Virus record (IMG/VR): IMGVR_UViG_3300047546_001263
Location: 37,261-101,260 of that record
Strand: one strand, 5' to 3'
Length of the DNA stretch: 64,000 bases
From: a virus
This document shows positions 1 to 32,248 of the stretch, one piece after another. The first letter of the stretch is position 1. Each line of letters begins with the position of its first letter. The translations under genes were made by a program, and so were the position numbers. The notes under the pieces were generated by a model. The model did not search any database, had not been told where the DNA came from, and worked only from the letters and a program-made list of their open reading frames with translations.

Positions 1-2152
1 AATCTTCGTTTCTCACAAGCTCATTCTTTATTCTATTTCTTGCATATACAACCCCTTTAGCTTGCTCTTTAGGTGTAAAAATAATTCTTAAATTTGGAAA
101 GTTATACTCTTTCAATTTAGTATAAGCTTCTTCTGTGTCTTGTATATTTACTCCTACAAAAACTCTACTAGGGTCAATAGCTTCTTCATATAAACTTTTT
201 AAAGTATCTATAAGTTGAGAATCGCAGTAACTTGCTATTGATACGAATATGTTACCATTTCCAAAACTCCAACTATCGTTATACTCTCTAAACCAGTTAC
301 CTTTAAAATGACACTCTGCAATAAATGGTATTTGATGTCCTAGGTTAAATTTTTCAGTATTAATATAGTAATTTTTATCCTCAATGTCAGACATATATCC
401 TCTCATTCTATAAATGTAAGAAGACAGTGTTGAATGACTATTACCTATAAACTTAATACTACGAGTACATATAAACTGCTCAATAATAGGAATCCAGTTA
501 TTATCAAATTCATTATAGATACTAACTTGATTCTTTAAATCTTCATAGAAAGAAACTCGATAAAGACCCATAAGAGGTCTAAAAAATTCTTTATCTCTAT
601 GGTCTGTTGCAATGTAAAGCTTACTTCCCTGAGGGATTATATCTTTTATATTCTCTAAAATTTGCTCACAGCTAATAAATAATTCTTTATATTGAAAGTC
701 ATTTCTACGAATATGAATAGAGTAGTAATCTCTATCTCCTAACTTATTAATAAATTGCCAAGCTAAATCAAAAATATCTGTACGATATCTTACATGTTTA
801 GCGATAAGTTTTTTGATCTCTACATCTAAACTTGTAAACAAGGTCTGATGAGTAACACCTAGAAGATTAGATTCAAGGAAAATAAATTCTTCATCTGTAA
901 AGTATTCTTCACTTCTTAATACTGGGCGGTGTTTATGAAACTTAACAGGCGGGTTAATTTTTTCAAAATTCATAACGTGTAAAACTGCATCATAATCTAA
1001 TACTTTACAAATACTTTTTACACTGTCGTAATTATGTTCTAATCCTTTTTCTTCACAGAACTTACTAAACGGTATGGAAATTACTCCTAAATCTGAAGTA
1101 TCAAAAAAAGATTCCATACTAGAGTTCCCTTCTAGTAAGTACATTTTATATTCTGGTGTTAAAACAAGCTTTCGATTAGTTAAGTATGCTATACATACTG
1201 CTAACTCTAACGACATTCTTATATTGTTGAAACCACCAGGCCAAGGTCTAAATAAAATATAACCTTTACTACCATCATAGAATTTAAAGATGCTAGAAAA
1301 ATCCCACTTATTGTAGTATATATAATCTGTTCTATACTGATCTACACTCGTAACCATCTTATTACTTGCTTCGCTTATTATATTTGATAAATCGTATTTT
1401 TGTGTTTGATCAAAGGTATGATCTTGCTTAAAGAACAGCTTGTTTCCTTGCTTATCTGAAATTACATTAGGGTAATGTAGTATACTTCCTATTGTAGACC
1501 TACCGGTATCGTTCCATGCAGTACAGGTTCCAATATCCTCAACTAAATCAACTTTTATATTAGAATCTTTAATTGCATAATCTAATCCCCACATTTCTGC
1601 TTCCCATCTTCCTTCTTTCTTTCTGATCTGCTCACAATACTCTGTATATTTTTTGTAAAATTTCTTTAGAGTATTAAACTTTAAAGCAAATGGGTACATT
1701 ATCCCTTGTGCATTATGGATATCTTTTTCTCGATCTTCCCATCCGTTTAGTGGAACAAAGTGAATGAACTTTTGACCGATGATATGATTGTCTTCTAATT
1801 CAAAATCAACTGCTTTTATAAACAGCATATCTGGGTCCAGGAATAATAACTTATCATTATCTTGGAAGTAGTTATTTTCGCATAACCATTCTACAGATTT
1901 ATATTTATTAGGGATACCACCCCACCAGTCATCGTTAGCTGTTTGCCAATTATGAGCATAGTCTGGTTGATCTATTACTATAGCGTCAGATAAAAAACTA
2001 AAATCTGGGTTTTCATGTCTGTGTCCGTAATCTCCGGAGAGTAGAACGACTAATTTACCTTTTTGATTTACCTTCTTTAAGGACCAGTGTAATAGTTTTA
2101 ACTGCCATGCTTGATACTCACATCTACTAGTTCCGACAACAATATAGTCCAT
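1..2152 (-). CDS. Three-domain glycosyltransferase, partial (runs off the left edge)
   Basis: The frame is open from an ATG at 2152 to position 1 with no stop, giving about 717 codons, so the C-terminus lies outside the window. Three parts can be read. Residues 1-300 look like a GT-A nucleotide-sugar transferase, with a DPDM (DxD-type) motif near residue 113. Residues about 300-620 resemble protein O-fucosyltransferases: a GGFNNIR motif near 307, HIRRNDF near 480, then IATD and an STLSS..RMRG stretch near 570. From about 635, IFVSIASYCD...RVFVGV and YARNRI..ELVRNED match the start of the GlcNAc transferase family (GT60 type). The ATG follows directly on the stop of the upstream oxygenase gene, which suggests translational coupling. 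A role in decorating virion or host glycans is inferred; substrates are unknown. Confidence 0.8.
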   Translation of the reverse strand, partial: MDYIVVGTSRCEYQAWQLKLLHWSLKKVNQKGKLVVLLSGDYGHRHENPDFSFLSDAIVIDQPDYAHNWQTANDDWWGGIPNKYKSVEWLCENNYFQDNDKLLFLDPDMLFIKAVDFELEDNHIIGQKFIHFVPLNGWEDREKDIHNAQGIMYPFALKFNTLKKFYKKYTEYCEQIRKKEGRWEAEMWGLDYAIKDSNIKVDLVEDIGTCTAWNDTGRSTIGSILHYPNVISDKQGNKLFFKQDHTFDQTQKYDLSNIISEASNKMVTSVDQYRTDYIYYNKWDFSSIFKFYDGSKGYILFRPWPGGFNNIRMSLELAVCIAYLTNRKLVLTPEYKMYLLEGNSSMESFFDTSDLGVISIPFSKFCEEKGLEHNYDSVKSICKVLDYDAVLHVMNFEKINPPVKFHKHRPVLRSEEYFTDEEFIFLESNLLGVTHQTLFTSLDVEIKKLIAKHVRYRTDIFDLAWQFINKLGDRDYYSIHIRRNDFQYKELFISCEQILENIKDIIPQGSKLYIATDHRDKEFFRPLMGLYRVSFYEDLKNQVSIYNEFDNNWIPIIEQFICTRSIKFIGNSHSTLSSYIYRMRGYMSDIEDKNYYINTEKFNLGHQIPFIAECHFKGNWFREYNDSWSFGNGNIFVSIASYCDSQLIDTLKSLYEEAIDPSRVFVGVNIQDTEEAYTKLKEYNFPNLRIIFTPKEQAKGVVYARNRIKNELVRNED

Positions 2153-3406
2153 TTATTGAGGTACAAATTTATAATCTGCTAATGTATAATGTAAAAAGAA
2201 ATTTCTAAAGAATTCTCCTTCAAAAGGTTCAATACGTCCATGTTTGTTAGTAGCAGATTCATATAGAATCATTTCCCCTGGTTCTGCATAAACTTTATGC
2301 CATCTACCTAAATGGTCTTGAATATCTAATGGCCAATCTCTATCTACCTGCTTATCTATTATTACTATAGATGATATGTGGTGAGTTACTAAAGTATCTG
2401 TATGTGGTTCTAGTATAGCCCCTCTTTTATAAGATCTGATACCGTAAATCCATTTCGGTACTAAACGTTCTTTATTACCTATAAACTCTTCGTGGATAGG
2501 TTGTAACTCTTCTGCAATAATCTCTCTAATACGGGTAAAAGCATCCATACTAAAGATTTCTACCGGTGCATTACCTTGATTATCGTGTATAAAATCAGTA
2601 ATACCGTTCCAATGTTCTGCTCGTACTGTAGGTTTCAGTAAGTTGTATGCTTCTGTAATCAACTGGAAGGTCTTTTCAGGTACTTTTACAACTTTAAATC
2701 CTAGTTCAGAAAGCTTTGGTAAATCTTCTTTCTTTGAAAATACTTTTTGTACTGGTTGCTGTGGTTGTGTCATTTCTTGATATTCTTTTGCAAGTCTAGC
2801 ATCTTCAGCACTATTGAATACATTTTCTCTAAACCATTTTGTAATAATTACTTTTCTACCTTTTCTTACAGGTAAACCTGCATGTAAAGCGGCTGAGTTT
2901 TCAGTTCCTGTACCGTTAGAGTTTTTCCAAACTACTGCAGTACCTTTTACTGGTGTAAATGTCTTTTGTAAGGTAGGAAAATCTGTTTCACCTCCTTCTT
3001 CAACATCATTAAGGTATATCATAAACGTCCATGTTCTTTGGCCGCTAGACAAACAATGGTTATGGTATGCTTCTTTTCCAAAAGCATCTTGGTGGTGTCT
3101 AAATTCTTGACCTACCTCATATATTTGACCTTGTGTTGGTTCTGAATAAGGAGCTTCTATTCCTAATTCTGTATACATTTTTTGATTAACACTACTGATA
3201 ATCGGATCTGTATCATGTAAAACTGCTGTAGAACTAGTACGGCCTTCGTCGTATTTTACAGATTGGGCTCCACTACCTGCTACGCTTGATCGAACACTTC
3301 CGTGTTCTGTTAGTCTTACAATATGATCACATTCTTCGTTTGTTAAGAACTGAGGGATTGTGAATATTTCCAATCCATGGCTGTTTTCTATATATACTCT
3401 TTCCAT
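2153..3406 (-). CDS. Tandem 2-oxoglutarate/Fe(II) dioxygenase (prolyl-4-hydroxylase-like)
   Basis: This 417-residue protein carries two oxygenase domains. The N-terminal one is of prolyl-4-hydroxylase type: iron ligands H105 and D107 in an HQD motif, H175 in ALHAG, a GGETDFP strand near 138, and a basic residue near 185 that could bind 2-oxoglutarate. The second domain has H335-T-D337, H389 and arginines near 391 and 401. Both sets of iron ligands are present, so both domains may be active. Members of the family hydroxylate protein side chains or small molecules; the substrate here is not visible. It sits between the ribonucleotide reductase genes and a multidomain glycosyltransferase. Hydroxylation of an amino acid that is then glycosylated is possible but only inferred. 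No Shine-Dalgarno is seen before the ATG. Confidence 0.85.
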   Translation of the reverse strand: MERVYIENSHGLEIFTIPQFLTNEECDHIVRLTEHGSVRSSVAGSGAQSVKYDEGRTSSTAVLHDTDPIISSVNQKMYTELGIEAPYSEPTQGQIYEVGQEFRHHQDAFGKEAYHNHCLSSGQRTWTFMIYLNDVEEGGETDFPTLQKTFTPVKGTAVVWKNSNGTGTENSAALHAGLPVRKGRKVIITKWFRENVFNSAEDARLAKEYQEMTQPQQPVQKVFSKKEDLPKLSELGFKVVKVPEKTFQLITEAYNLLKPTVRAEHWNGITDFIHDNQGNAPVEIFSMDAFTRIREIIAEELQPIHEEFIGNKERLVPKWIYGIRSYKRGAILEPHTDTLVTHHISSIVIIDKQVDRDWPLDIQDHLGRWHKVYAEPGEMILYESATNKHGRIEPFEGEFFRNFFLHYTLADYKFVPQ

Positions 3407-3423
3407 ATAAGGGTGTTTTATTA

Positions 3424-5139
3424 TTAACCATCACAAGCTACACAATCTTCTGCAGTTCTACTACCAATGTCTCCGTTAATTACAGAATCTGTTCTTAGAT
3501 AATATAAGGTTTTTATACCTAACTTCCAAGCCGTCTGGTGAACTAAGTTGATAAATCTTGGACTATCAGTTGGATCAAATGCTAAGTTTAAAGACTGAGT
3601 CTGATCGATATACTGCTGGCGGATTGCAGCTTGTTCTACCAACTGTAGCTGGTTAATTTCAGCAAATGTTAAGAAGATTGGTTTATCCTCTGCAGGCATA
3701 ACATCTTCTGGTAAATTTGCAATAGAACCTCTATCTTTCATAATCTGGTCCCATACTTCTTCTGTATTATGACCTCTTTCTAATAAATAGTTTTCTAGTT
3801 CAGGATTTTTACGAATAAAAGTTCCCTTTCCTGAATTAAATGTGTAGATATTCGCCGGTAATGGTTCAATACCTGCTGATACACCTCCTGATATAGTTGA
3901 ATTTGAAACTGTTGGTGCAATTGCAAGCAAGTGAGTGTTTCTCATACCTGTACCTTTACACCATACTGGTTCTCCATATTCATCAGCTAACTTTCTAGAA
4001 GCAGCTTCTGCTTGTGACTTAATTTGAGAGAATATCTGATGTGTAAAGCTATTTGCTGCAATACTAATAAAAGGTATCTTCTTTTGTTGTAATAATGTAT
4101 GCCATCCTAGAACTCCTAACCCAATAGCTCTACCTTTCTTAGCTGAACGATGTGCTCTGATTAAAGACTCTTTTCCGTTGGTCTTTACTAAAAACTCTTC
4201 CATTACTCCATCTAAGAAGTAGATTGCAGTTTCAATTAAATCAGTAGATTTCCATTCATCCCATTTAGCTAAGTTAACCGAACTTAAGCAGCAAATAAAA
4301 CTGTGCTCTTCGTCAGTATGTAAAGTAATCTCTGAACATATATTAGTCATTGTTACTTCTAAATTATTCTTAATATATGCCGGAGGGTTAGCATTGTTTA
4401 CATTATCTTTAAACATAATATAAGGTTCCCCTGTCTCAACTCTAGCCTTTAGTATTTCTACCCAGACTTCCATTGCCTCAGGGTCTCTACGCTCGATCTT
4501 TTGCATAAAGTTATCATCCACTACAACGCATTGATGTAGGTTAAGACACTGTCTATTCGGATCTCCTTTAGGTCGTCTAATCTGTAAAAATTCCTTAATA
4601 TCTGGATGGTTAATGTCTAGATTTACGGAAGCCGCTCCTCTTCGAACTGCTCCTTGATTTGTTGCAATAATAGTAGAATCGTAAATCTTAGCCCAAGGAA
4701 TAACTCCTTCTGACTGTCCTAGATCTCCGTTACCAATTTTGGAACCTCTTCCTCTAATTTTAGAAAGACCAATACCTACACCACCTCCTAACGAAGTCAA
4801 TCTCATCAATTCAGCATTTGTTAATCCAATACCTCTAATAGAGTCTGGAGTATCAATACCAAAGCAGGAAATAGGTAGTCCTTTGTCTGTACCCGTGTTA
4901 GATAAAACTGGAGAAGCTAAATTCAACCAACCTTTCCACATATACTTAAAAAACTTGGCTGCTAAATCAGGTCGATCTAATCTTGCTGCAACTGTATCTG
5001 ATACTCTCTTATATGCTTTTCGAGGAGTCTCTCCTGGAAGGAGATATCCTTTAGATATTGTTGATAAAGAAATTTCGTTCATCCATTCAGGATAATCTTT
5101 TCCTGCTTCCCATGCGGAAGTATCTACTTGTAGTGCCAT
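3424..5139 (-). CDS. nrdA: Ribonucleoside-diphosphate reductase, large subunit
   Basis: Catalytic subunit of class I ribonucleotide reductase, making dNTP precursors for phage replication. The protein has 571 residues, much shorter than the roughly 760 of E. coli or T4 NrdA, and begins directly in the catalytic region with no N-terminal ATP-cone. Visible catalytic parts are the redox cysteine C92 (ISCFG), the N266-I-C268-S-E270 active-site triad region, its partner cysteine at 283 or 284 before LSS, a YYLRT motif carrying the radical-transfer tyrosine pair, and a C-terminal CVAC pair (C566, C569) for re-reduction. Without the cone, overall activity control by ATP/dATP is expected to be lost unless NrdB supplies it, and the NrdB here has no cone either. 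It lies 22 bases downstream of nrdB, so the two are probably co-transcribed. Confidence 0.95.
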   Translation of the reverse strand: MALQVDTSAWEAGKDYPEWMNEISLSTISKGYLLPGETPRKAYKRVSDTVAARLDRPDLAAKFFKYMWKGWLNLASPVLSNTGTDKGLPISCFGIDTPDSIRGIGLTNAELMRLTSLGGGVGIGLSKIRGRGSKIGNGDLGQSEGVIPWAKIYDSTIIATNQGAVRRGAASVNLDINHPDIKEFLQIRRPKGDPNRQCLNLHQCVVVDDNFMQKIERRDPEAMEVWVEILKARVETGEPYIMFKDNVNNANPPAYIKNNLEVTMTNICSEITLHTDEEHSFICCLSSVNLAKWDEWKSTDLIETAIYFLDGVMEEFLVKTNGKESLIRAHRSAKKGRAIGLGVLGWHTLLQQKKIPFISIAANSFTHQIFSQIKSQAEAASRKLADEYGEPVWCKGTGMRNTHLLAIAPTVSNSTISGGVSAGIEPLPANIYTFNSGKGTFIRKNPELENYLLERGHNTEEVWDQIMKDRGSIANLPEDVMPAEDKPIFLTFAEINQLQLVEQAAIRQQYIDQTQSLNLAFDPTDSPRFINLVHQTAWKLGIKTLYYLRTDSVINGDIGSRTAEDCVACDG

Positions 5140-6240: not shown

Positions 6241-7575
6241 TTAATTTTCTTCAAAAAATTTCTTAGCAATCTCAAAATGTGTACCTTGAGAACTGCTACC
6301 TCCTTCATCTAGAATAGCTTTACTCTCTATCTCGATATGACCATTATTTGTATCCATTTTAACATTATAAGTCATACCGTCTTGTCCGTATCTATTCTTC
6401 ATAACGTGAAGTCGACCTGTACCTAATACCTTGTCTTCTTTCTGTCTAGATAAAGATAAGCATATATCGGCCACCATCATCTTATCATAAGAACCTGCTG
6501 CTTTATCACCTTCAATTACATTATCTTTAGCACCCATTCGGTTTACCTGAGATGGTGTAAGTATAGGTATTTTTAATTCTTTAGCTAAGCTCTTTGTAGC
6601 AATGAATACATCATCAATTTCATCCTTACGTTCAGAGAATTTACCTCGTGACGGTGCTTTAAGATAGTCGACATAGTCGATGACAATCATGTCAGGTTTA
6701 TGTCCCATATCAATACACTTCTGAACGTGACTCTTAATGTTATTTACTGTCGCTGCTTTAGGAGCATATTCTTTTACGATAAGCTTACCTTTCAAATTAT
6801 TTATTTGAGCTTCTACGTCCTTTCTATGCTTATTTACTTCGTCGATAGAATAGCCTGTAAAGTAGCAGTCAAATCGTTTACCTACGTAATCTTCTCCTAA
6901 CTCTAAGGTATAATAGTTTACCTTGAAGCCTAACTTTACAGCATGTGCTGCTGCTGCCACCATCGTCCAAGATTTACCGCCACCTGGGTTACCGAATACG
7001 ATAATCAAATCACCAGGGCCCCATCCTCCTTGAATTGTTTCATTCATAGCAGGCCATGGTGTAGGTATAGTAGGTCTATAGTCTGTTCTATATCTAGACT
7101 CTACATCTTTATCATACTCATGTCCGATATTTTTATCCATAGCAGCTTTCATAGCTTTTTCGATAAGGTTTCTGATACCTTCGAAATCGCTTTGCTTTAA
7201 CAAGTCTGCTGAGGATAGAATAGCAGCTTTCATTTCTTGATTCTTACAGAAGGTAGTAAACTCCTCTTCTACGTAAGCTAAATCATCTTGAGAAGCTGCA
7301 TAAGAATTTCTTAACTCTTCTTTTAATGCAACCTGTAATACTTCGTTATCTACTTTTTGTAACTCTACTTTTAATACATCCATAGTAACGGTAGTATGGT
7401 ACTTATCGAAGTACTTTATAATCTGCCCTACAATCCATTTATGTGTATCAGCATCAAAATACTCCTCTCTCAAAACATCTCTTACCGTAAGTAAGAAACC
7501 TTTATCTGTTAGTAAGGCGCCGATAACTTTAATTTGAAAAGCTTTACCGTACTGTGTTAACTTCTGCAATGTCAT
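6241..7575 (-). CDS. Replicative DNA helicase, DnaB/gp41-like
   Basis: Hexameric 5'-3' helicase of the DnaB/T4 gp41 class, 444 residues. The N-terminal helical domain (about 1-150) precedes a RecA-fold ATPase: Walker A GNPGGGKS at 195-202, Walker B-like MIVIDYVDYL at 296-305, and a TPSQVNR stretch followed by an arginine-rich region typical of the family. It would unwind DNA at the fork ahead of the polymerase encoded upstream at 11.0-12.3 kb. The gene follows the 5'-3' exonuclease by five bases and closes the replication block, with a hairpin terminator behind it. No primase gene is visible in the window. Confidence 0.92.
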   Translation of the reverse strand: MTLQKLTQYGKAFQIKVIGALLTDKGFLLTVRDVLREEYFDADTHKWIVGQIIKYFDKYHTTVTMDVLKVELQKVDNEVLQVALKEELRNSYAASQDDLAYVEEEFTTFCKNQEMKAAILSSADLLKQSDFEGIRNLIEKAMKAAMDKNIGHEYDKDVESRYRTDYRPTIPTPWPAMNETIQGGWGPGDLIIVFGNPGGGKSWTMVAAAAHAVKLGFKVNYYTLELGEDYVGKRFDCYFTGYSIDEVNKHRKDVEAQINNLKGKLIVKEYAPKAATVNNIKSHVQKCIDMGHKPDMIVIDYVDYLKAPSRGKFSERKDEIDDVFIATKSLAKELKIPILTPSQVNRMGAKDNVIEGDKAAGSYDKMMVADICLSLSRQKEDKVLGTGRLHVMKNRYGQDGMTYNVKMDTNNGHIEIESKAILDEGGSSSQGTHFEIAKKFFEEN

Positions 7576-7580
7576 ATAAC

Positions 7581-8603
7581 TTATTGTTTAAAAACCGTTA
7601 ATGTTCTAAAATTCTCTAACCAGCCTTCCGTGTTCTTAGTTATACCTTCTATCTTATCTATGTCTAGTAGGTGTAAAAAAGCTCCTGTTTGTAGAGGTGG
7701 AATAGGCTCTTTTAGTACACTTAATATATGAAGAATTTCTTTATCATCCAACTGGCCTTCATGTAAATTCATCAGTTGGTAGTTAGTTTTTACCCGATCC
7801 CAATTGTGTATAATTTTAGCAAAAATAGATTTACCGTCTAAGTTCTGCTCACATACTGAATAGATATCTTGTAGTTCGTAGTTAGGATTAGTAAGTAATC
7901 CTGGGAACTCTTTTGTTAGTGTTTTTAACCCCAATCCTTTTACTCCAGAAAGATTATCTGAATTATCTCCTAGTAAGGCCTTCACTATGTTATAGTTTTG
8001 TGGAAGTACTTCTAATTCTTGTACGATATTTTCCTTTGTGTATAAAGTTTTCTTAATAGGAGAGTATACTGAGATACATCCATCAATCAACTGTAAGAAG
8101 TCTTTATCTGAAGATACAATTGTAACCTGTTTCCCAGATGCTGAAGCACCTAAAGCTAAGTCTGCAATAATATCATCTGCCTCTAACTTCTCCATTGTTA
8201 GACTCTGTACTGGTAAGCATTCAAGATAGTCTTTTAATCTATCTAATTGAGCAGAAAGTGATTCATACTCTTCTTGCTTATTCTCATACATACCCCAATT
8301 AGTAATCCTTGTATGTTGTCTTTGTGCTTTATAGTTTGGATCTATATTCTTTCTATTAGTAGAAGAACCTTTACCATCAAACACGCAAACTACTCTTGTA
8401 GGGTCTACTGTACGTACTAAAAATCCTAGAGATCTAAGGAAGCCTACAAGACCACCGATATGGTGGCCTTGAGGATTCATTGCTCTGAGTGTTGAGAAGC
8501 TACGAATAAATGTATTCATAGAATCTATGATCAAGATATGATCGTTTAACTCTCTAGGCGGGGACTCTTTAAGGTTGTTTATAATTTTGCTATAGTCTGT
8601 CAT
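7581..8603 (-). CDS. 5'-3' exonuclease / flap endonuclease (T4 RNase H type)
   Basis: Structure-specific nuclease that would remove RNA primers and 5' flaps from lagging-strand fragments. The 340-residue protein has the family's acidic metal-binding set: D27 in LIIDSMN, D76 in VFDGKG, EADD at 141-144, SSDKDFLQL with D166 and D168, and GDNSDN with D213 and D216. The last is followed by the helix-hairpin-helix VKGLGLKT. Its start overlaps the uvsX stop by one base (TAATG), indicating coupled translation. Placement with SSB, UvsX, polymerase and helicase supports the replication role. Confidence 0.92.
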   Translation of the reverse strand: MTDYSKIINNLKESPPRELNDHILIIDSMNTFIRSFSTLRAMNPQGHHIGGLVGFLRSLGFLVRTVDPTRVVCVFDGKGSSTNRKNIDPNYKAQRQHTRITNWGMYENKQEEYESLSAQLDRLKDYLECLPVQSLTMEKLEADDIIADLALGASASGKQVTIVSSDKDFLQLIDGCISVYSPIKKTLYTKENIVQELEVLPQNYNIVKALLGDNSDNLSGVKGLGLKTLTKEFPGLLTNPNYELQDIYSVCEQNLDGKSIFAKIIHNWDRVKTNYQLMNLHEGQLDDKEILHILSVLKEPIPPLQTGAFLHLLDIDKIEGITKNTEGWLENFRTLTVFKQ

Positions 8604-9676
8604 TAATCGTCTAATAGGTTTGGTAGGATTTCATCTTCTTCCATGTCACCTTCTTCGACTAGACTAAAATCAATAGATCCTAAAAGTTTCAACCAGTGAT
8701 CCTTATGAGAATCTTTATATTTATCGATTGCTTTCTTATCGTCTGCAATAAAACCATGAGGGGTCATTACAATTCGTCCTCTTGTCTGTACACCTTCAAT
8801 ATGATTCTTTTCGATTTGTATATTTGTTCTTTTAGCAAATTCAACCTGTAAGCCACTTTTAATAGCTTTAATCTTAGAAGTTCCTGGGTTAGTGATGTTA
8901 CCGAATGTAATTACTAATGTTGCATCATACCACATCGACATACCGCCTTTATTTTGTAATTTTGGCTGTGACATCGGTGAGTCTGGTTTCTGTGTCCATA
9001 CTTTATTAATAGCTACTAGAGTATTAGTGTATGGAGATCCTTCTTTTCGAGATAATAGAATCTTCTGATTGAGGTTATTACCAAACTGAGTAGACATTGC
9101 ACCTGCGTTCCATTCGTTATTATTCTTATTAGATCTAACAGATAGATCACACGGTACAGATCCTACTGAATCCCAGAAGAAACATAAATCATGAGGTAGG
9201 TTTCCTTTAGCTTGTTCGTCTAAAAGGTCTGCTATGTACGATGCTACATCTTCAATAGTATTTAACGTACCTCTATCAGCGTAAAGGAAAAAACCTTCGT
9301 AGTCTGTAATCTCACCAGTTGCTTGATCTACAACTTCTTCAAACTGTAGACCCATTTCTTTAGCGTGACTCCAAGACCATTTCATCTCAGTGATGATTAA
9401 TACCGGGAGTATTCCCATCTTTTGAGCGGATACTGCTGCTTCAAGTAATGCAGTAGTCTTGCCGGTGTCGCTATGCCCACGGAGCAGGGTAATATGCCCC
9501 GTAGGTATGCCCGGTATAGACGTAATGTCTTGAAAAGCTTTTGATAGAGGAATCCATCCTTGCTCTTTGAACTTTACCGAAGCATTAGCGAAACCTTTTT
9601 TCTTCTTAAAATTTCCTAAGTTAAATCCACCCTTTACTATAGCAGATGCTTTTTCTGCTGTTGCGCTTTTTGCCAT
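8603..9676 (-). CDS. uvsX: UvsX-like RecA family recombinase
   Basis: Strand-exchange ATPase for recombination-dependent replication and repair. The 357-residue protein has Walker A GHSDTGKT at 67-74, a Walker B-type hydrophobic stretch ending FFWDSVGS near 165-173, and a glutamine/asparagine-rich segment with NLNQKI, in the usual RecA-like order. The C-terminus is acidic (EEGDMEEDE), as in many recombinases. It lies six bases after the gp32-like SSB gene and overlaps the exonuclease start. Confidence 0.92.
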   Translation of the reverse strand: MAKSATAEKASAIVKGGFNLGNFKKKKGFANASVKFKEQGWIPLSKAFQDITSIPGIPTGHITLLRGHSDTGKTTALLEAAVSAQKMGILPVLIITEMKWSWSHAKEMGLQFEEVVDQATGEITDYEGFFLYADRGTLNTIEDVASYIADLLDEQAKGNLPHDLCFFWDSVGSVPCDLSVRSNKNNNEWNAGAMSTQFGNNLNQKILLSRKEGSPYTNTLVAINKVWTQKPDSPMSQPKLQNKGGMSMWYDATLVITFGNITNPGTSKIKAIKSGLQVEFAKRTNIQIEKNHIEGVQTRGRIVMTPHGFIADDKKAIDKYKDSHKDHWLKLLGSIDFSLVEEGDMEEDEILPNLLDD

Positions 9677-9681
9677 TTATT

Positions 9682-10482
9682 TTATTCGTTAAAAAGGTCA
9701 TCAAATTTACTTACCGTGTCTTTCAAACCAGGAGCTGCAGTTTCTAAAGTAAAGTCAGTTGAATGACTACCTAAAGTCTGAGTCAGGTTGTCTGCTGGAG
9801 GAGCTGCTGGAGTTTCCTCATCTGCTGAACCAGGAGTTAAGTAATTTTGTAATTGCTTTTTAATGAACTCATAATCGTATTGAGTATGAATCTCAACAGG
9901 GTGTGGTTGGTTCTTTAACCATAAGTCAACTTGTGCTGCATTATCTGATAATGGAGTTTGCTTAGGTCGAATACGAACCGATGTGGTTGGGTATGGGTTA
10001 CCAGCAGCAACTTCTACTACTAAGTCCCATCCATTCATTACGTCTGTGTAATCTCCTACCTCTTCGTCTTGAGCTAATGCTAATAACGCTTTGTAGATCG
10101 TCACACCAAATCCCCATAAACGAACACCTTTCTCTTCTTCACCTTTTACGATTACTGGAGCGAAAATACGTGTCTTGGGGTTAAGTTTACCGGCTAATGT
10201 CCAGTTATCCTTATCTGAAGTCTTCTTTAATTCCTTAATGAATTCTTCAATAGGATCTTGTTTTCCGAAGTTAGATAAAGCGGCCATAGGGTATTTACCA
10301 ATTCCATAGTGAAACTTTACTTCCTTAAATGGAAGATTAGGATCATACATAGAAGGTACAATACGAATAGTGCTTTTTCCAATTTCAGGTTTCCAGAAGG
10401 TAGCTGAATAGTCTACTTTCTCTCTTTCTTGTCCGCCGTTATTCAACGCAGACAGCTTTGCTTTGATTGCATCTAGATTCAT
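9682..10482 (-). CDS. Single-stranded DNA-binding protein, gp32-like
   Basis: T4 gp32-type SSB, 266 residues. The N-terminus is basic and helical (MNLDAIKAKLSAL). It is followed by the conserved core with FWKPEIGKSTIRIVP and an OB-fold-like region up to about 200, then a low-complexity linker and an acidic tip (KFDDLFNE) that in this family recruits replication partners. The protein contains no cysteine at all, so the zinc site of T4 gp32 (three Cys and one His) is absent. Genes for the polymerase and UvsX flank it, fitting a replication/recombination role. Confidence 0.88.
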   Translation of the reverse strand: MNLDAIKAKLSALNNGGQEREKVDYSATFWKPEIGKSTIRIVPSMYDPNLPFKEVKFHYGIGKYPMAALSNFGKQDPIEEFIKELKKTSDKDNWTLAGKLNPKTRIFAPVIVKGEEEKGVRLWGFGVTIYKALLALAQDEEVGDYTDVMNGWDLVVEVAAGNPYPTTSVRIRPKQTPLSDNAAQVDLWLKNQPHPVEIHTQYDYEFIKKQLQNYLTPGSADEETPAAPPADNLTQTLGSHSTDFTLETAAPGLKDTVSKFDDLFNE

Positions 10483-10529: not shown

Positions 10530-10988
10530 TCAATTCTCCAACTCTACGATCTTAAATAATTTAGTATTTACTCTTTTTAATTCCGGACCTTTCGTTAATA
10601 GAATACAATTCTTGTAATCAGTCCAGTTAATCTTAAAAGAAGTATCTAACACTCCGTTATTAAGTTCTTTGATTAGGGTATTAAGTGCGTTAATCGTATA
10701 AAGGGTATTTGCTTCTTTCTTGCGATGTACTAGAATAGTATTATCGATGAAGTTAGAAACGTTGCCAAAATCTACATTATAAGTACAGATGTATTCATCT
10801 TGGCTTTTTGAATATAAAACAAATATCTTATTGTAGATTATTCTATATTTTTGTACTATATTTTCTATTGTTGCATCCAATTCCTCTCCTGTGGAGAAAG
10901 TGCAGAACAGTTTATTACTCATATCCTCAGTTAAATATATTTGATCGATATCGTAATCGAATCGACTTTGAGACATAACATTTTCCAT
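10530..10988 (-). CDS. Protein of unknown function in the replication block
   Basis: A 152-residue protein that I do not recognise. It is soluble-looking, with an alternating acidic and hydrophobic N-terminus and a basic C-terminal segment (KGPELKRVNTKLFKI). It has two or three isolated cysteines and no obvious catalytic motif. Met1 and Met5 are both possible starts; neither has a clear Shine-Dalgarno. The position between the DNA polymerase and SSB genes suggests a role in replication or its control, as with RegA or clamp-loader proteins in T4, but I see no sequence match to those. Confidence 0.65.
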   Translation of the reverse strand: MENVMSQSRFDYDIDQIYLTEDMSNKLFCTFSTGEELDATIENIVQKYRIIYNKIFVLYSKSQDEYICTYNVDFGNVSNFIDNTILVHRKKEANTLYTINALNTLIKELNNGVLDTSFKINWTDYKNCILLTKGPELKRVNTKLFKIVELEN

Positions 10989-11014: not shown

Positions 11015-12337
11015 TTACAAAACCAGGTTTTCTGATGTTTTTATTTTAACTGGGTATTTCTTATTTTCGCTTAGTATCAATGCTAATTCGTTAAGTATAT
11101 GCTCTCCATCTTCTTTAGCATAGTCAAAAAGTATTGCATCGTAAGTATATAAAGCTATTTTAGTCTTTTTATCTCTAAGATACTTTAACACTTCTTTTAA
11201 TATAAGGACATTTCTTGCAGTTTCCAACGATTGCATAATATAATTCATAAGTTTCTGCGGATGCATATCTTTTAGATTCTGATTAAACGGCTTATTGCTG
11301 ATAGGAGTACGTGCTTCTCCTTTAGAAAACTCACTCCATAAGTAGTTAATATAATTTTGAATCTTGATAAAAATCTCTAAATTTTTATATCCTTCTGGTA
11401 TTCTACCGTAGATAGCCTGGAAGTTTATCTGTTTAGCTTCCTGGTATTCTTCTTGAGTAATATCTTCTTTACCAAAGTAGTACTTTCCTAAGGCTTTGTG
11501 AGCTGATTCTCCTTCTATCTTAAAGTCAATCTGCTCTGATAATAATCGTAGATGGTACCCGTCAAAATCAAATTCAACAAAGCAATCATATTGAGGAATA
11601 ATAGCTTTTCTATACTCTTCTTCTTTAGGTATAGCTGCAAAGTTTACACTATTAAATGCGTTAGTAGGTCTTGAAGTACTATTATATAGGTTGTAGTATG
11701 TATAAGCTATATTATCCTGTATATTAAACCGTGGTGTATTTGGTTTAAATAAGTCTATAAACGGTTGATATATAACTCTTAATCCATGCTGTTCTAGTAA
11801 GTAAAATACCTTAACAGCAACATCGTTATAGAACTTAAAAGTCTCTTCTTTAGGTTCTTCAATATACTTCTCTATTACATCAAATACTTTTTCACTCTGT
11901 TCATGTAGTTTAGATAAAGGTATTATCTGATTTACATTATCAAAGTCTTTAAACTTATTATAGAACCAATTTATTGTTGATAATTTACTAGGTAGTTCAA
12001 GCTTTTCGTAATACCAGAAAGCTCTCCAAAGGTTAATATCAATTGCGTCTATAAGCGGAAAATGATACAGTAGGTTCTTTTTATCTAAAACATAGACTTT
12101 CCTGTAAGTCTTAAGTATCTCAAATACTTCTGCTTTTTCTACGTTTAATCCTTCATCATGGTTTATAGGGATAATGTACCCTCCGGTATCATCCAAGGGC
12201 CTAATGTAGACTGCTACAGTTGTAGTAAGTTTGGGATGGAAGTTATCGTTAGATGAAATTACATCTACATAAACATCGGTATCCGGATAGCTTCGCAGTC
12301 TATCTAGCTGCTGCTTATTTTCTACTATATAAAACAT
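11015..12337 (-). CDS. Family A-like DNA polymerase, compact, exonuclease site degenerate
   Basis: The 440-residue protein matches the core of DNA polymerase I enzymes. It has a TSRPTN..N..NF..IP stretch at 221-237 (like TGRLSS..PNLQNIP), motif A EFDFDGYHLRLL at 255-266 with a catalytic Asp, and motif B AKQINFQAIYG at 301-311. The MNYIMQSLETARN helix is at 364-376, and motif C YTYDAILFD at 397-405 has Asp400, with the usual His replaced by Tyr. The N-terminal 100 residues follow the pattern of the 3'-5' exonuclease fold (YVDV...GGYIIPINH), but the catalytic DxE is replaced by DVIS, so proofreading is probably lost. T4-type phages normally use a family B enzyme. It is the only polymerase in the window and starts the replication block, so it is probably the replicative enzyme. 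Confidence 0.8.
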   Translation of the reverse strand: MFYIVENKQQLDRLRSYPDTDVYVDVISSNDNFHPKLTTTVAVYIRPLDDTGGYIIPINHDEGLNVEKAEVFEILKTYRKVYVLDKKNLLYHFPLIDAIDINLWRAFWYYEKLELPSKLSTINWFYNKFKDFDNVNQIIPLSKLHEQSEKVFDVIEKYIEEPKEETFKFYNDVAVKVFYLLEQHGLRVIYQPFIDLFKPNTPRFNIQDNIAYTYYNLYNSTSRPTNAFNSVNFAAIPKEEEYRKAIIPQYDCFVEFDFDGYHLRLLSEQIDFKIEGESAHKALGKYYFGKEDITQEEYQEAKQINFQAIYGRIPEGYKNLEIFIKIQNYINYLWSEFSKGEARTPISNKPFNQNLKDMHPQKLMNYIMQSLETARNVLILKEVLKYLRDKKTKIALYTYDAILFDYAKEDGEHILNELALILSENKKYPVKIKTSENLVL

Positions 12338-26374: not shown

Positions 26375-27025
26375 TTAGTTTTTACAATTTGGTAATTTGA
26401 GAGTTAGGTCTTGTATTATTCCTAGCTTTCTTTCTTTTATATAATTAGTCCAAAGGATGCTCCCTTCGTACTTTTGTGTATACTTTTTTTCAAGATAAGA
26501 ATTAAGTGCATATATATCATCAAAAAAATCAGTATAACTTCTTTTAAATAACTTCTCAATTCCTTCTGGGTAAGTAGTAAACATTCTCTCGTCTAATGTC
26601 TTATATAGATATCTTCCGTATATAAAGTCTTCTTTCTTTCTTCCATTTAATAAAGGGTGTGCATGAATAGCTGCTTCTTGAAAATACTGCTCTACATTCT
26701 TATCGTATTCTATACGTCTTGTTTCTAAGTCTGGTTTAAACTTTATGATAGTTGAGTATTTAGAAAGATCTGAAATTAAATTTGCAGCTTGATATGTAGA
26801 GTGTAGTATTAAGTACTTTTTCTCTTCATACATTGGAACCTCTAAGTTAATAGTAATCCTTGTATTGTTTTGATACCTCATTAACTTATTAACCCACCTT
26901 AGATTCTCAGGAGTATTCCAACTATGAACGTAGGTGTCTACTTCTTCTCCTAAATCTTCTATAAACTTAATAAAGTTATCTGAAAAGTTAGTAAGTAGCC
27001 CTGATATTATTATTGCTTTAGCCAT
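26375..27025 (-). CDS. Putative glycosyltransferase-like / polysaccharide biosynthesis protein
   Basis: A 216-residue protein. The start KAIIISGLLTNF, then VDTYVHSWNTPENL at about 29-43 and a KFKPDLETRR stretch near 93, follow the pattern of a group of surface-polysaccharide proteins. These begin ISGQLRxF, then DVFIHTW, then a RxDL/KPD motif. The enzymatic function of that group is not well defined. The gene overlaps the sugar-nucleotide dehydrogenase gene by 8 bases and belongs to the glycan cassette. Confidence 0.5.
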   Translation of the reverse strand: MAKAIIISGLLTNFSDNFIKFIEDLGEEVDTYVHSWNTPENLRWVNKLMRYQNNTRITINLEVPMYEEKKYLILHSTYQAANLISDLSKYSTIIKFKPDLETRRIEYDKNVEQYFQEAAIHAHPLLNGRKKEDFIYGRYLYKTLDERMFTTYPEGIEKLFKRSYTDFFDDIYALNSYLEKKYTQKYEGSILWTNYIKERKLGIIQDLTLKLPNCKN

Positions 27026-28193
27026 TCAGTAATCTAGTATTCCCGTAGTGTATAACCCTGTTAATATCTGATTTATATTCCCTCCATGGATCTATAATAA
27101 CTGAGCCTTTAGGAAAATCAAAATCATGATGTTTCTTATAATGAGCTAGTAGGTAAATTGCTGGTACTGGATCTTCAATGTCGTATAGAACTTCGTACCC
27201 TTGTTCTTCTACATAATAACCTACTAATATAGATGAAGATCCGTCTTCGAAATGTACTCCTGGTTTATAAGATTTACCTAATATAACTACAGGTAATTTA
27301 CGAACTTTTGCGTAAAGAACCAACTTATTTGCTAGATTTTTTGCTTGTTTTTCTCTAGCTTTCATAATGGAATCGAATAAATCGTAACCTAATCTAAGCT
27401 TTTCAGATAAGAATCTTAGTGCTATATTGTCACGAGGGTGGCATCCACCGCCATCTCCCATTCCGGCTTTCATATACGCAGGGCCTAAGATGCGCTGGGT
27501 GCTTCGTTCTAAAGCTCCTGTAACTACGTCTGTGTTTATATTTCCATTTTTTTCAGCAACATCTTGAATCATGTTTACAAGAGCAACTTTGGTTGATATA
27601 AACGTATTGTAAAATATCTTTATTGATTCAGCTTCATCCCAAGTACCTATTTCAATTCTAGTAGAAGGGTTTATAAATGTATTATAAAAGTCTATAAGTA
27701 ACTTAGCGTCCCCTGTTTCTGATCCATCTTCAGTTCCTATAATAACCATTTCTGGGTTGACCATATCATACTTAACCGATCCCATTGCGATTAAATAAGG
27801 ATTGTATATAAACCTAAAGTTATTAACTAGTGGAATAAATTCTCGTCGTATTGTTCCGGGCAATACTGTAGATATTAAAACTACAAGTTGATTAGTATTT
27901 GTGTACTTGTCTACTTTAGTAAGTACTTCTTTTACTATCCCGTAATCAAAATCTTTGTTTTGTAAGTGAGAGGTGGGAAAGCGACCATCGTAGTCTGGGT
28001 GATGCGGTGTAGGTACAGCTATGAAAATGAGATCTTTATCTTTACATACTTTTTCTACATCACTAACCATAGGAAAGTTTACTGTTGCTGCTACACTTTT
28101 ATTTGTATCATACCCTTCAACGTAATGCTTTTCTGACATTACTTCTGCAGCTTCTTTACCTAATTTACCTACCCCTATAAAACCTATTTTCAT
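27018..28193 (-). CDS. UDP-glucose/GDP-mannose dehydrogenase family protein
   Basis: NAD-dependent four-electron oxidation of a nucleotide sugar to a uronic acid form is the family reaction. The 391-residue protein has the N-terminal Rossmann motif GFIGVGKLG (4-12), IFIAVPTP at 57-63, STVLPGT at 108-114, a central helix with ESIKIFYNTF (K192), the catalytic cysteine C251 in GGGCHPRD, and the C-terminal LGKSYKPGV..DGSS region. These cover all three expected parts. It would supply an activated sugar acid to the neighbouring transferases. The exact sugar cannot be read from sequence. Confidence 0.9.
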   Translation of the reverse strand: MKIGFIGVGKLGKEAAEVMSEKHYVEGYDTNKSVAATVNFPMVSDVEKVCKDKDLIFIAVPTPHHPDYDGRFPTSHLQNKDFDYGIVKEVLTKVDKYTNTNQLVVLISTVLPGTIRREFIPLVNNFRFIYNPYLIAMGSVKYDMVNPEMVIIGTEDGSETGDAKLLIDFYNTFINPSTRIEIGTWDEAESIKIFYNTFISTKVALVNMIQDVAEKNGNINTDVVTGALERSTQRILGPAYMKAGMGDGGGCHPRDNIALRFLSEKLRLGYDLFDSIMKAREKQAKNLANKLVLYAKVRKLPVVILGKSYKPGVHFEDGSSSILVGYYVEEQGYEVLYDIEDPVPAIYLLAHYKKHHDFDFPKGSVIIDPWREYKSDINRVIHYGNTRLLNG

Positions 28194-28196
28194 TTA

Positions 28197-28694
28197 TTAT
28201 TTTGCTTTATAGTCAGATACTAGTAAATTTCCTGCAAAAATCGAATGGTTCTTTGCAACTGTGATATGAGCTACTCTACCTTGGCAAGCTGTAATGCTTA
28301 TCTGATCTATGTTAACCCATACTTGACCGTCAAACATTTTATGTTTATCAGCAGTAACTTTAACTAATTTTTCTGGAGCAATTCCTTCTATTTCAGGAGC
28401 TACTTCTGTAAAGTAACCTAAGTATGTTTCACCTTCAAAATCTTCTCTTACGTATATAATAGAATCTAATGTTAGTACTTGAGGTAAATAGTTAATCTTA
28501 ATACCTTGATAGTATTTTTCATAATCTGCATCAGGGTCAATTTCTACAGAAACAATTTCAGATATTTCAAAGGTAGATTCATCTGTGTTGTATGTAATAA
28601 TAGACTCTCCTGCTTGTAATTCTTCTAAAGTTTTTCTAACAGATCCTAGATCAACTGAAGTATCGAAAGAAAGGGTGTATTTTACGTTGCTCAT
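28197..28694 (-). CDS. Hint (hedgehog/intein)-like domain protein, putative
   Basis: A 165-residue beta-rich protein. GESIITYNTDESTFEISEI (about 29-47), VTADKHKMFDGQVWVNIDQI (about 113-132) and AHITVAKNHSIFAGNLLVSD (about 143-162) line up in order with the N-terminal, TxxHxxx..G.W and 'NHxFFANGILVHN' blocks of Hint folds. The nucleophilic cysteine expected at an active N-terminus and the final His-Asn are missing, so self-splicing is not expected. It has its own TATTTATA box 13 bases before the ATG. The match is by eye and could be a fold analogy only. Confidence 0.4.
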   Translation of the reverse strand: MSNVKYTLSFDTSVDLGSVRKTLEELQAGESIITYNTDESTFEISEIVSVEIDPDADYEKYYQGIKINYLPQVLTLDSIIYVREDFEGETYLGYFTEVAPEIEGIAPEKLVKVTADKHKMFDGQVWVNIDQISITACQGRVAHITVAKNHSIFAGNLLVSDYKAK

Positions 28695-28707
28695 TTTAAT
28701 AATTTTA

Positions 28708-28715
28708 TATAAATA
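28708..28715 (-). promoter_or_regulatory. TATTTATA box upstream of the Hint-like gene
   Basis: Coding-strand TCTATTTATAT ends 13 bases before the ATG and overlaps the gap behind the esterase gene. Confidence 0.45.
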
Positions 28716-28717
28716 GA

Positions 28718-29644
28718 TTAAATTAACTTTGGTATTTTATTTGAGGTTCTCTTTTCGGAAAAAGTGGTTAAGTGTTCTAAGATTTGATTAGCAAATAATT
28801 CTTGACTAAGTGGTCCTGGGTGAGCGCCGTCTCTAGCAAATCCATCTTTTATATTTTTATGATTTTCTAAAAATTCAAAGTAAGGTAGTGTTTGTTTTTT
28901 AGTCAAGTATTTTTTCTTTAGATACTCATATAAGGGAAAATCCCACGAGCTGTAGAATGTTTCAATATTATTAGCTTTTGCAATTGCATCAATATGAGAA
29001 ACATTTTTTATTGCATTATAGATTTGTACTTCTTCTGTAGCATACGTATAATACTGTTCCCACTTATCTTCTATATGGTGAGGGTGTACATTCGGAATTA
29101 AGTTATAGTAATGCGTGCCCCTCTTTTGCACATGTTCTACATATTCCTCTCTCCAGTGTGTAGGTAATAGGAAGATTGCTATATCTATCTGATATACATC
29201 AGTAAGGTATTTAAAAAGTTTTAAAGATTTTGTAATACTACCGCCTGGGTATCCTAAATTAATAAGTTGAATTGGTTTATCTGTTTTTAACGACTGTTTA
29301 ACTAAAGCATGCCAAGTTTTATCTTCGTCTATACCTACACCGAATGTAAAACTACAACCAAATACTGCGATTTTTAAATGATCTGGTTTTGGATTGTTTA
29401 TAGACCAATCTCCTCTACACGCATAATCATTTATATAATACCTGACATCTTCAAATCTCAATTTCGTTTTATTATCTTCTATAGCTTTTATTGTCTGAGT
29501 CTGTTCAGAATAAGAAGTAAATTGAGTAAATCGATTTAACGCTCCTGTAGCCCAAGGATCTAAGGTCATAATAGTCTTATACTCTAACCTTAAAACTTCA
29601 CAGAAGTGTTTAATACTTTCTATATTCCAAATTATATCATTCAT
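28718..29644 (-). CDS. SGNH/GDSL-family hydrolase, putative carbohydrate esterase
   Basis: A 308-residue protein with the SGNH blocks. GCSFTFG at 96-102 carries the nucleophile Ser98, LGYPGGS gives block II, FLLPTH is near block III, and DGAHPG at 272-277 carries the Asp272/His275 pair. Family members remove acyl groups from sugars, lipids or peptidoglycan. Within this glycan cassette, acetyl removal from (or transfer to) a polysaccharide is a sensible guess. The first 85 residues are an extra helical segment. The start overlaps the radical-SAM gene's stop by one base. Confidence 0.8.
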   Translation of the reverse strand: MNDIIWNIESIKHFCEVLRLEYKTIMTLDPWATGALNRFTQFTSYSEQTQTIKAIEDNKTKLRFEDVRYYINDYACRGDWSINNPKPDHLKIAVFGCSFTFGVGIDEDKTWHALVKQSLKTDKPIQLINLGYPGGSITKSLKLFKYLTDVYQIDIAIFLLPTHWREEYVEHVQKRGTHYYNLIPNVHPHHIEDKWEQYYTYATEEVQIYNAIKNVSHIDAIAKANNIETFYSSWDFPLYEYLKKKYLTKKQTLPYFEFLENHKNIKDGFARDGAHPGPLSQELFANQILEHLTTFSEKRTSNKIPKLI

Positions 29645-30918
29645 TAAAAGTAGGGTTTAAATTCTGGGTTGAGTTTTAGAAAATCCTGGTTGCGAACTTT
29701 ATCTAAATCTTTTGTTACTGTTATAAATCGTTTGAAAAACTCAGGGTTACCTTCTTTCTTATTCATGATATCTAATAATGATTCCCATCCGGAAAATGGT
29801 ATGCCGTATTTATTTTCCATACTTCTACCGTACTTAGTTATCTTTTCTGTGGCTAATTCTTTTAACTCGTTTGGTAGAGTTTCTAAAGCGTAGTACATCG
29901 GAAAGAATACCGGGTTGATATGAAACCTACTAGTAAAGTAATGACTAGGATCAAAAGGATATTGCTCGTGAGGCTTTTTGTGAATAGGAATTAGCCCCAT
30001 ATCAAAAAACTCTTTATGCATTTGATCTATTCGAAATATATTCAAAAGGCTAATTGTAGGGTGTAGCCAGAAATCAATACCTGCTTCGTTTATCTTTAGT
30101 AGATTTTCTTTCGTCTTAGCCCACTTTCCGTTGTGTCTAACTAGTTCAAAAAGATCTCCAGTCCCGTCTATAGATAAACTAAGATGGACATGCTTAAACT
30201 TTTTCCAAATATCAATAATGTTTCTACCTTTATTTTCCAACATTGTAGCATTAGTAGAATACTTTAACTTAACATCGTATAAGTTACGTTCTTCTAACAT
30301 CTGTATAATTTTCCAATGCTCGGGCATAATTAGAGGTTCACCTCCTGCGAAATGTATTTCTTTTGCACTATGAATAGTCTCTTCTATATTCTGCCAAAAA
30401 CTATCCGCATTATCTAGATTTATTAATCCTAAGTGTTCAGACTTGTCCCCAAACACTTGAATAAAATCTTTAGTCCAAGCTGTACTAAATAGAGGTGAGC
30501 AGGTTCTACATGCTAGGTTACAGTAGTTACTAAATCTAAAATCCCAATAAAGTAATCTAAGTTCATCAATACTCCCATCTTCCTTAGTATTCTCAACTAA
30601 GTCCTCTATCTGATCGAACCAATGATCATTCATACCAATTCTCATACTTCCCATTCCGGACTTTTCTTTACTTACACATCTATGACAAGATGCCGGTAAA
30701 GGTTTTCCTTCAAGCATTCCTTTGCGCATTGATTTAGCCTTCTCACTATTCATGATATCGAATAAAGAAGTATCGTTCACGTTCCCTAAAGTAGACTGGT
30801 TATCTACTGGGGTCATACAACATGGATATGTTCTACCGTCATTCACTACGTGTAAGTGCATCCATAATGCAGAGCAGAAATTTTCTGATTTTTTATAATC
30901 TTTAGTTGAATTGCTCAT
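29644..30918 (-). CDS. Radical SAM protein with N-terminal cysteine cluster (SPASM/twitch-like)
   Basis: A 424-residue protein. The radical-SAM cluster motif CX3CX2C is C133, C137 and C140 (YCNLACRTC), followed by an FAGGEPL motif that binds SAM. Before it, C15, C33, C34, C78 and C81 form a likely auxiliary iron-sulfur site; this inverted order (auxiliary part first) is known from twitch/SPASM-type proteins of unknown reaction. Substrate unknown. It sits between the esterase and a glycosyltransferase-like gene and is related in layout to the radical-SAM proteins at 32.2-33.9 and 34.4-35.8 kb. Confidence 0.85.
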   Translation of the reverse strand: MSNSTKDYKKSENFCSALWMHLHVVNDGRTYPCCMTPVDNQSTLGNVNDTSLFDIMNSEKAKSMRKGMLEGKPLPASCHRCVSKEKSGMGSMRIGMNDHWFDQIEDLVENTKEDGSIDELRLLYWDFRFSNYCNLACRTCSPLFSTAWTKDFIQVFGDKSEHLGLINLDNADSFWQNIEETIHSAKEIHFAGGEPLIMPEHWKIIQMLEERNLYDVKLKYSTNATMLENKGRNIIDIWKKFKHVHLSLSIDGTGDLFELVRHNGKWAKTKENLLKINEAGIDFWLHPTISLLNIFRIDQMHKEFFDMGLIPIHKKPHEQYPFDPSHYFTSRFHINPVFFPMYYALETLPNELKELATEKITKYGRSMENKYGIPFSGWESLLDIMNKKEGNPEFFKRFITVTKDLDKVRNQDFLKLNPEFKPYF

Positions 30919-32248
30919 TCAATATTCTTTTTAATATAAATACTTCAGCTCTACTAGCTTGTATCATATGTTTATAATTATGTGTAAGTATATTACTCAT
31001 CTGTTTAGTCATCTCTAGTAACTCTTTAGGAGTTTTCTCAACTAAATCTTTCATAATATCTATAATCTTTTCTAACCTTTTGCTAAAGTTCTTTTCTTTA
31101 TCATAAGATTCATCCCAAAAGTCCCCAAATGTTTTAAACCCTAGTTTCTGTAATTCTTCAAGAGTTCCCGGGTTACCAAGAACGATAAAAGGTTGGCAGC
31201 AAAAAATAGGTTTAAATATCTTTTCAGATAAAAATATAGTATCTTCTTCAAACAATGTTTCTGTAAATACGTTTACAAAAGTATTTAGATGAAGAGTTTC
31301 GTTTAGGTTAAAAGCTAGGTTGTAGTTTAAGTTTGAATCTACAAAGTAGTCTTCGTTATTATCGTAGTTGTTAATAAAATCTAATCCCGATTGTTTGTTG
31401 TGTTTATAGTTATCAGGTACAAATGCATCATATAAAGTCATCCAAGGATTATCGTATAGTCTATCCCAATGGTGTTTATCTGCTGATTGATTAGCGTCTA
31501 AGTTACGACTACCCATGCTTAAGACTGTCGAATCTTTTAGTTGCGGGTCTTTTGCAATTTCTGTAAATAATAAAATCCTATGTGTTCTAGGTCTTCTATT
31601 TAGTGAGAGAAATCTTTTAGGCTTTGGGTAAGTTGTAACATACTTTCTTTTATCTTCAAAAGCGATTTGAAGTAACTGGTCGTTACTTTCATCTAGAAGG
31701 TCTTCTTTAATAAACCATGGATTAAGTAAAAAGTAGTTACAGGTTTTTACTGTAAAAAGAGCATTGTCGGGTTCTTCGTAATTCCACTTTAAGTTATTGG
31801 ACAATACTAATACGTCTTCTTTCTGAAAATTATACTTTAATGCAAACTTATTGAGAGCTTCTATTTCATTTACATCTGTTTTTTTAAAATCTCCTTCAAA
31901 TAAATGACTTAAAAGAATCTTAGCTTGTTTATTTTTAACCGCATTAACAATCGTATCGCTCAGCTTATAGTAAGTTTCATCACTAAGTCTACTGAAAGCA
32001 ACTTTATCTCTCAATAAAATAGCGTACATAAACTTTTCAGAACCTTTTATTAAATTATCCACAGTATCATGTCCAAAGCCATGCTCTCGGTAGTCTAAGT
32101 GTTTCTTAAAAAGAAAACCATATACATTATACTTTGCTAATTCATTATAAGTTCGAGGTAAATCTTCTGCCCCTACCTTCCCATTTGGGAGTGGATAGGG
32201 GTTTGGATATTCTTCTAAGTCTACGTATTTGTCAAATCCGAATTTCAT
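30902..32248 (-). CDS. Putative glycosyltransferase (GT10/exostosin-like C-terminal half)
   Basis: A 448-residue protein. The C-terminal half has FVNVFTETLFEEDTIFLSEKIFKPIFCCQPFIVLG (about 325-360) and GFKTFGDFWDESYD, a pattern seen in GT-B transferases such as fucosyltransferase-like GT10 and exostosin-type proteins, where E.x.SEK.xxP binds the nucleotide sugar. A LSLNRRPRTHR motif near 215-225 fits such families too. The N-terminal half is not recognisable. It overlaps both flanking radical-SAM genes (17 and 4 bases), so all three are translationally coupled. Confidence 0.6.
   Translation of the reverse strand: MKFGFDKYVDLEEYPNPYPLPNGKVGAEDLPRTYNELAKYNVYGFLFKKHLDYREHGFGHDTVDNLIKGSEKFMYAILLRDKVAFSRLSDETYYKLSDTIVNAVKNKQAKILLSHLFEGDFKKTDVNEIEALNKFALKYNFQKEDVLVLSNNLKWNYEEPDNALFTVKTCNYFLLNPWFIKEDLLDESNDQLLQIAFEDKRKYVTTYPKPKRFLSLNRRPRTHRILLFTEIAKDPQLKDSTVLSMGSRNLDANQSADKHHWDRLYDNPWMTLYDAFVPDNYKHNKQSGLDFINNYDNNEDYFVDSNLNYNLAFNLNETLHLNTFVNVFTETLFEEDTIFLSEKIFKPIFCCQPFIVLGNPGTLEELQKLGFKTFGDFWDESYDKEKNFSKRLEKIIDIMKDLVEKTPKELLEMTKQMSNILTHNYKHMIQASRAEVFILKRILNEQFN
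30935..30942 (-). promoter_or_regulatory. TATTTATA box upstream of the radical SAM gene at 30918
   Basis: Coding-strand TATTTATA ends 16 bases before the ATG but lies inside the preceding coding region. Confidence 0.35.

Follow-up and report, generated by a model that had tools for sequence, protein, structure and literature searches.

A compact family-A-like polymerase, predicted to lack a thumb, accompanies a separate replicase in T4-type phages

We questioned whether a compact, polymerase-like protein of 440 residues (hereafter P), encoded by a T4-type phage, serves as the replicase of that phage or works beside another polymerase. The window analysed here, a stretch of 64,000 nucleotides, holds its open reading frame at positions 11015-12337 on the minus strand, with an ATG start; feature coordinates below are window positions unless stated otherwise, and those of P and its operon lie on that strand. 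Assignment to the T4 type, already made in the initial annotation, is borne out by gp23-like head, portal, T4-type terminase, sheath, gp32 and DnaB/gp41-like genes in the window. Roux et al. (2015, PMC4360716) described contigs of far-T4 phages carrying DNA polymerase, primase and queuosine genes, and by gene content this phage appears to resemble clade 1 of that study.

Fold and active site of the compact polymerase

P is a real gene under selection, with a dN/dS of about 0.05 against near relatives that indicates strong purifying selection. The Pfam DNA_pol_A model (PF00476) matched residues 231-316 with E 6e-7 and 29.2 bits against a curated cut-off of 34.3, which some relatives of P exceed. 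As a single sequence P matched Pol I in the PDB weakly (E 2.5e-4), a profile built from 74 relatives matched Klenow at E 3.4e-7, and hhalign of the P profile against E. coli Pol I gave E 1e-8 (95.7%). Together with the conserved motif residues described below, these searches uphold the initial description of a family-A-like protein of 440 residues with motifs A, B and C, from which template-directed DNA synthesis is predicted. The structural comparison with Pol I that had been proposed at the same time gave the same answer: the AlphaFold2 model (pLDDT 94.6, pTM 0.92) found only family A polymerases among its top PDB matches, with E values down to 6.5e-18, and it matches Pol I/Klenow, with the palm, the fingers and an exonuclease-like domain of the Pol I fold. 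That fold also rules out a TOPRIM primase of the gp61/DnaG kind.

To assess the active site we counted residues across 152 representatives of P with at most about 85% mutual identity, mapping Pol I numbering by hhalign. By these counts the catalytic centre is conserved: R223 (Pol I R668; 11669-11671), the motif A catalytic aspartate D257 (D705; 11567-11569), the motif B residues K302, F306 and Y310 (K758, F762 and Y766; 11408-11434) and Q369 (Q849) are present in 152 of 152, and D400 of motif C (D882) in 151. Two neighbouring positions are changed throughout. The initial annotation had noted the loss of the motif C histidine, which is indeed replaced by tyrosine (Y399 for H881, 152/152; motif C pair at 11138-11143), and we additionally found that H262 (11552-11554) stands in all 152 in place of E710, the glutamate that forms the steric gate in family A polymerases (PMC10639073). 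Lying beside the metal site, the glutamate-to-histidine and histidine-to-tyrosine substitutions could alter the chemistry of the enzyme. They adjoin catalytic positions and are accompanied by large deletions relative to Pol I, as might be expected of a polymerase-like protein that serves the replisome as an inert scaffold; however, the residues for two-metal catalysis and dNTP binding are kept in essentially all members, unlike in typical dead paralogues, and we consider an inert scaffold very unlikely.

Closer comparison with Klenow shows how much has been removed around this centre. P shares with the E. coli enzyme the palm and fingers fold and the equivalents of R668, D705, K758, F762, Y766, Q849 and D882, and differs from it in the E710 and H881 substitutions, in length (440 versus 605 residues), and in having no thumb and no working exonuclease. 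Right-hand polymerases grip the primer-template with the thumb, the absence of which from P had gone unremarked in the initial annotation, as had the exchange at E710. In both profile alignments, the PDB profile search and hhalign, P jumps from Klenow residue ~556 to ~650, so that a short linker of residues ~198-206 (11720-11746) occupies the site of the Pol I thumb (~557-649), and no helical thumb insert was found at the linker in the AlphaFold2 model. As judged from these two alignments and the predicted secondary structure, the thumb is missing. Among canonical PolA enzymes of the phage collection the closest to P, from the Herelleviridae phage Quidividi (Sepunavirus), has ~130 residues at the gap and keeps both the motif A glutamate and the motif C histidine. 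Lacking the thumb, P may have too little affinity for DNA to function, except where another factor, such as the partner protein described below, compensates.

The N-terminal part (residues ~1-160; 11858-12337) resembles an exonuclease domain by position and strand order in the model, and the fold matches include polymerases that bear one. The DxE motif had been described as replaced, and it reads DVI here; when the four DEDD columns were counted across relatives, the acids were not conserved. In one sub-lineage of 332-344 aa the first 73-91 residues, corresponding to the N-terminal half of the exonuclease-like domain, are gone, and no trace of them was found in the flanking reading frames. Because the DEDD acids are unconserved and the N-terminus is deleted in one sub-lineage, P is predicted to contain no working proofreader.

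A separate replicative polymerase

The virus record from which the window is drawn is 101,260 bases long, and at record position 1135-3450, outside the window, it encodes a 771-aa polymerase of family A with both a PF00476 match (E 8e-60) and a PF01612 exonuclease match (E 8e-11). This full-length PolA is probably the replicase of the phage. A complete gp43-type polymerase elsewhere in the genome was the finding that the initial annotation had named as speaking against its proposal; the complete polymerase present here is of family A, and the implied view of P as a substitute for gp43 does not hold. The gene for the 771-aa enzyme lies near a QueF-like gene.

The same arrangement recurs in every long record examined. 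All 13 P-bearing records of at least 90 kb encode exactly one replicative-type polymerase besides P, with none encoding both family A and family B and none encoding neither, a count that rests on long records only, since most virus records are fragments. The replicase belongs to family A in six of these (this genome, immuto and four others) and to family B in seven (Mel-JY01, LR756508 and five others). Ten shorter records of 59-80 kb yielded one family A and four family B enzymes, and the five with no detected replicase are as expected of fragments. Because every long record with P also has one replicative polymerase, P is therefore a second, accessory polymerase of family-A ancestry and not the phage replicase. 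Its place in a replication operon with helicase and SSB genes would suit a main replicative polymerase, but a complete exonuclease-bearing enzyme of family A or B accompanies it in every long record and P itself has neither thumb nor proofreading, making this role highly improbable. It follows that in many T4-like phages from the environment a second polymerase operates next to the replicase; in surveys that use polA as a marker the P gene should not be taken for "the" phage polymerase.

P is not a recent duplicate of the phage's own PolA. The hhalign probability against the full-length enzyme of the same genome is 0.4%, and in a polymerase-domain tree all 30 compact proteins form one clade (100/100), separate from the full-length enzymes; as the canonical rows include long branches, we take from this tree no more than that the compact proteins belong together. 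A separate 3'-5' exonuclease acting in trans, as in the Rhodothermus phage RM378, is unnecessary where the replicase carries its own. RM378, which is also T4-related and has an unusual polymerase arrangement, had been described in the initial annotation as carrying a family A polymerase split in two; the two-gene split stands and the family does not, as the exonuclease gene matches DNA_pol_B_exo1 and the polymerase gene DNA_pol_B, both of family B. No compact PolA homologue was found in RM378. Its RM378p012 (NC_004735), which matches PF02739, is a 5'-3' exonuclease despite the annotation "similar to DNA polymerase I".

A conserved operon and a small linked protein

P lies in a run of replication and recombination genes. 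It is followed by h, a protein of 152 aa and no known family (10530-10988) that we regard as its partner from their linkage, by a gp32-like single-stranded DNA binding protein (9682-10482; PF08804 E 1e-11, and synteny), by a RecA/UvsX-like recombinase (8603-9676), by a 5'-3' exonuclease of the RNase H/flap-nuclease type (7581-8603; PF02739 E 1e-33) and by a DnaB/gp41-like replicative helicase (6241-7575; PHROG 19 E 1e-73, PF03796). The recombinase scores below the cut-off here (PF00154 E 6e-5), its Mel-JY01 orthologue matches PF00154 at E 4e-51, and the immuto counterpart is annotated "recombinase". Relatives keep the order P, h, gp32, UvsX/RecA, 5'-3' exonuclease, helicase on one strand throughout: among 63 P loci that extend at least 8 kb further downstream, h is found in 62, gp32 in 61, UvsX and the exonuclease in 60 each and the helicase in 56. 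In many marine relatives one large gene of ~630-660 aa and no known function sits between P and h. Quidividi shows a comparable order, in which PolA is followed by a small gene of no known function, an SSB-like gene and recA; that small gene, tried as a homologue of h, gave no match.

The partner protein is more conserved than P itself and bears the signature NTISLHRKKxTNTLYTINALN. Pfam and PHROGs gave no convincing match for the h family, and its structural model (pLDDT 89) matched no solved fold, the best E being 0.16. Linkage to P is obligate: of 50,697 phage records, the six that contain P are also the six that contain h, and when viral contigs were scanned independently for h, P lay no more than 2.6 kb upstream of it in every locus that could be judged (58/58), 22 others having too little upstream sequence. 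Across the phage records and these 58 loci, h was found only together with P.

Cultured relatives share this organisation. The nearest is Flavobacterium phage vB_FspM_immuto (Immutovirus), whose gp001 is 58.7% identical to P over its full length and is already annotated "DNA polymerase family A"; the operon order is the same, gp199 is a second, full-length PolA, and nothing essential differs between gp001 and P, so that immuto provides a cultured member of the family. A search of the open-access literature returned no characterisation of gp001. Mel-JY01, a Microcystis phage, encodes a protein 28% identical to P (WWT39333, annotated "hypothetical protein") in an operon arranged as here, with additional sequence between h and gp32, and its family B replicase lies far from this operon. 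Neither a thumbless family A enzyme nor a second phage polymerase of this kind was found in the open-access literature set, and the searched passages of a review of phage polymerases (PMC8775771) do not mention such an enzyme.

Possible roles and distribution

The reading we favour, with moderate confidence, is that P is an accessory family-A-derived polymerase that has kept its palm and fingers centre, has lost thumb and proofreading, and works with h. We infer that the enzyme is most likely active, distributive, non-proofreading and dependent on h, serving in gap filling or D-loop extension. It would make short patches of low processivity, with h holding it on DNA or docking it to gp32 or UvsX. 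The gene neighbourhood suggests that P may fill lagging-strand gaps once the adjacent 5'-3' exonuclease has removed the primers, or alternatively that it may extend D-loops or primers made by UvsX during recombination. Both halves of bacterial Pol I would thus come from separate genes of one operon, along with an SSB and a recombinase. A bolder form of this proposal, to which we give limited credence, makes P and h the two subunits of one polymerase: h would provide the DNA grip of the thumb in trans, and the histidine gate would let ribonucleotides be used, or RNA or recombination primers be extended. If true, T4-type replisomes, with a family A or a family B replicase alike, would divide their work in a way not previously described.

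We also weighed two functions that differ from accessory synthesis with h. An open, thumbless polymerase could serve damage tolerance, bypassing lesions or modified bases: the loss of thumb and proofreading fits low-fidelity enzymes, P coexists with a proofreading replicase, and 7-deazaguanine genes are at hand (queuosine/DpdA-type in immuto, QueF in this genome). Translesion synthesis is nevertheless unlikely given that P always sits in a core replication and recombination operon and occurs in diverse phages whose replicases differ. Alternatively, P might start or extend RNA primers for the neighbouring gp41-type helicase as a primer-making or ribonucleotide-using enzyme. The invariant histidine at the glutamate gate (PMC10639073), the nearby helicase gene and the failure to find a TOPRIM primase in some long records, such as those of 174 kb and 132 kb, are in keeping with this, but a gp61-like TOPRIM primase gene lies beside P in immuto, Mel-JY01, LR756508 and four other records. 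These genes weaken the case for P as a primase replacement, and we regard a primer-making role as distinctly unlikely.

Environmental relatives of P number ~600 or more, with at least 571-592 confirmed. They make up a widespread phage clade in which the thumb is absent, the catalytic centre is kept, the sugar-selecting residue is changed and the protein is tied to the small protein h, and P accordingly poses a testable question: how little of Pol I suffices, and what can replace its thumb. P was found in 6 of the 50,697 phage records and, across 84,980 species genomes, at only seven loci, all in MAGs. We rejected a bacterial origin, as these seven are probably phage contigs binned with the MAGs. 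MAG contigs with P carry the labels Flavobacteriales, Rickettsiaceae, Winogradskyella and Nitrosopelagicus, and were probably binned with their hosts or misbinned. The suggestion that phages of this kind infect Bacteroidota-like hosts is plausible for this phage, in that the nearest cultured relative infects Flavobacterium.

Elsewhere in the window, positions 27018-37220 hold a run of radical-SAM genes, at least three of them with matches, beside a UDP-glucose dehydrogenase-like gene, perhaps a cluster for sugar or surface modification. Positions 2153-3406 encode a protein that has an Fe(II)/2-oxoglutarate oxygenase domain and, at its C-terminal end, a part similar to phage "ferrochelatase" families.
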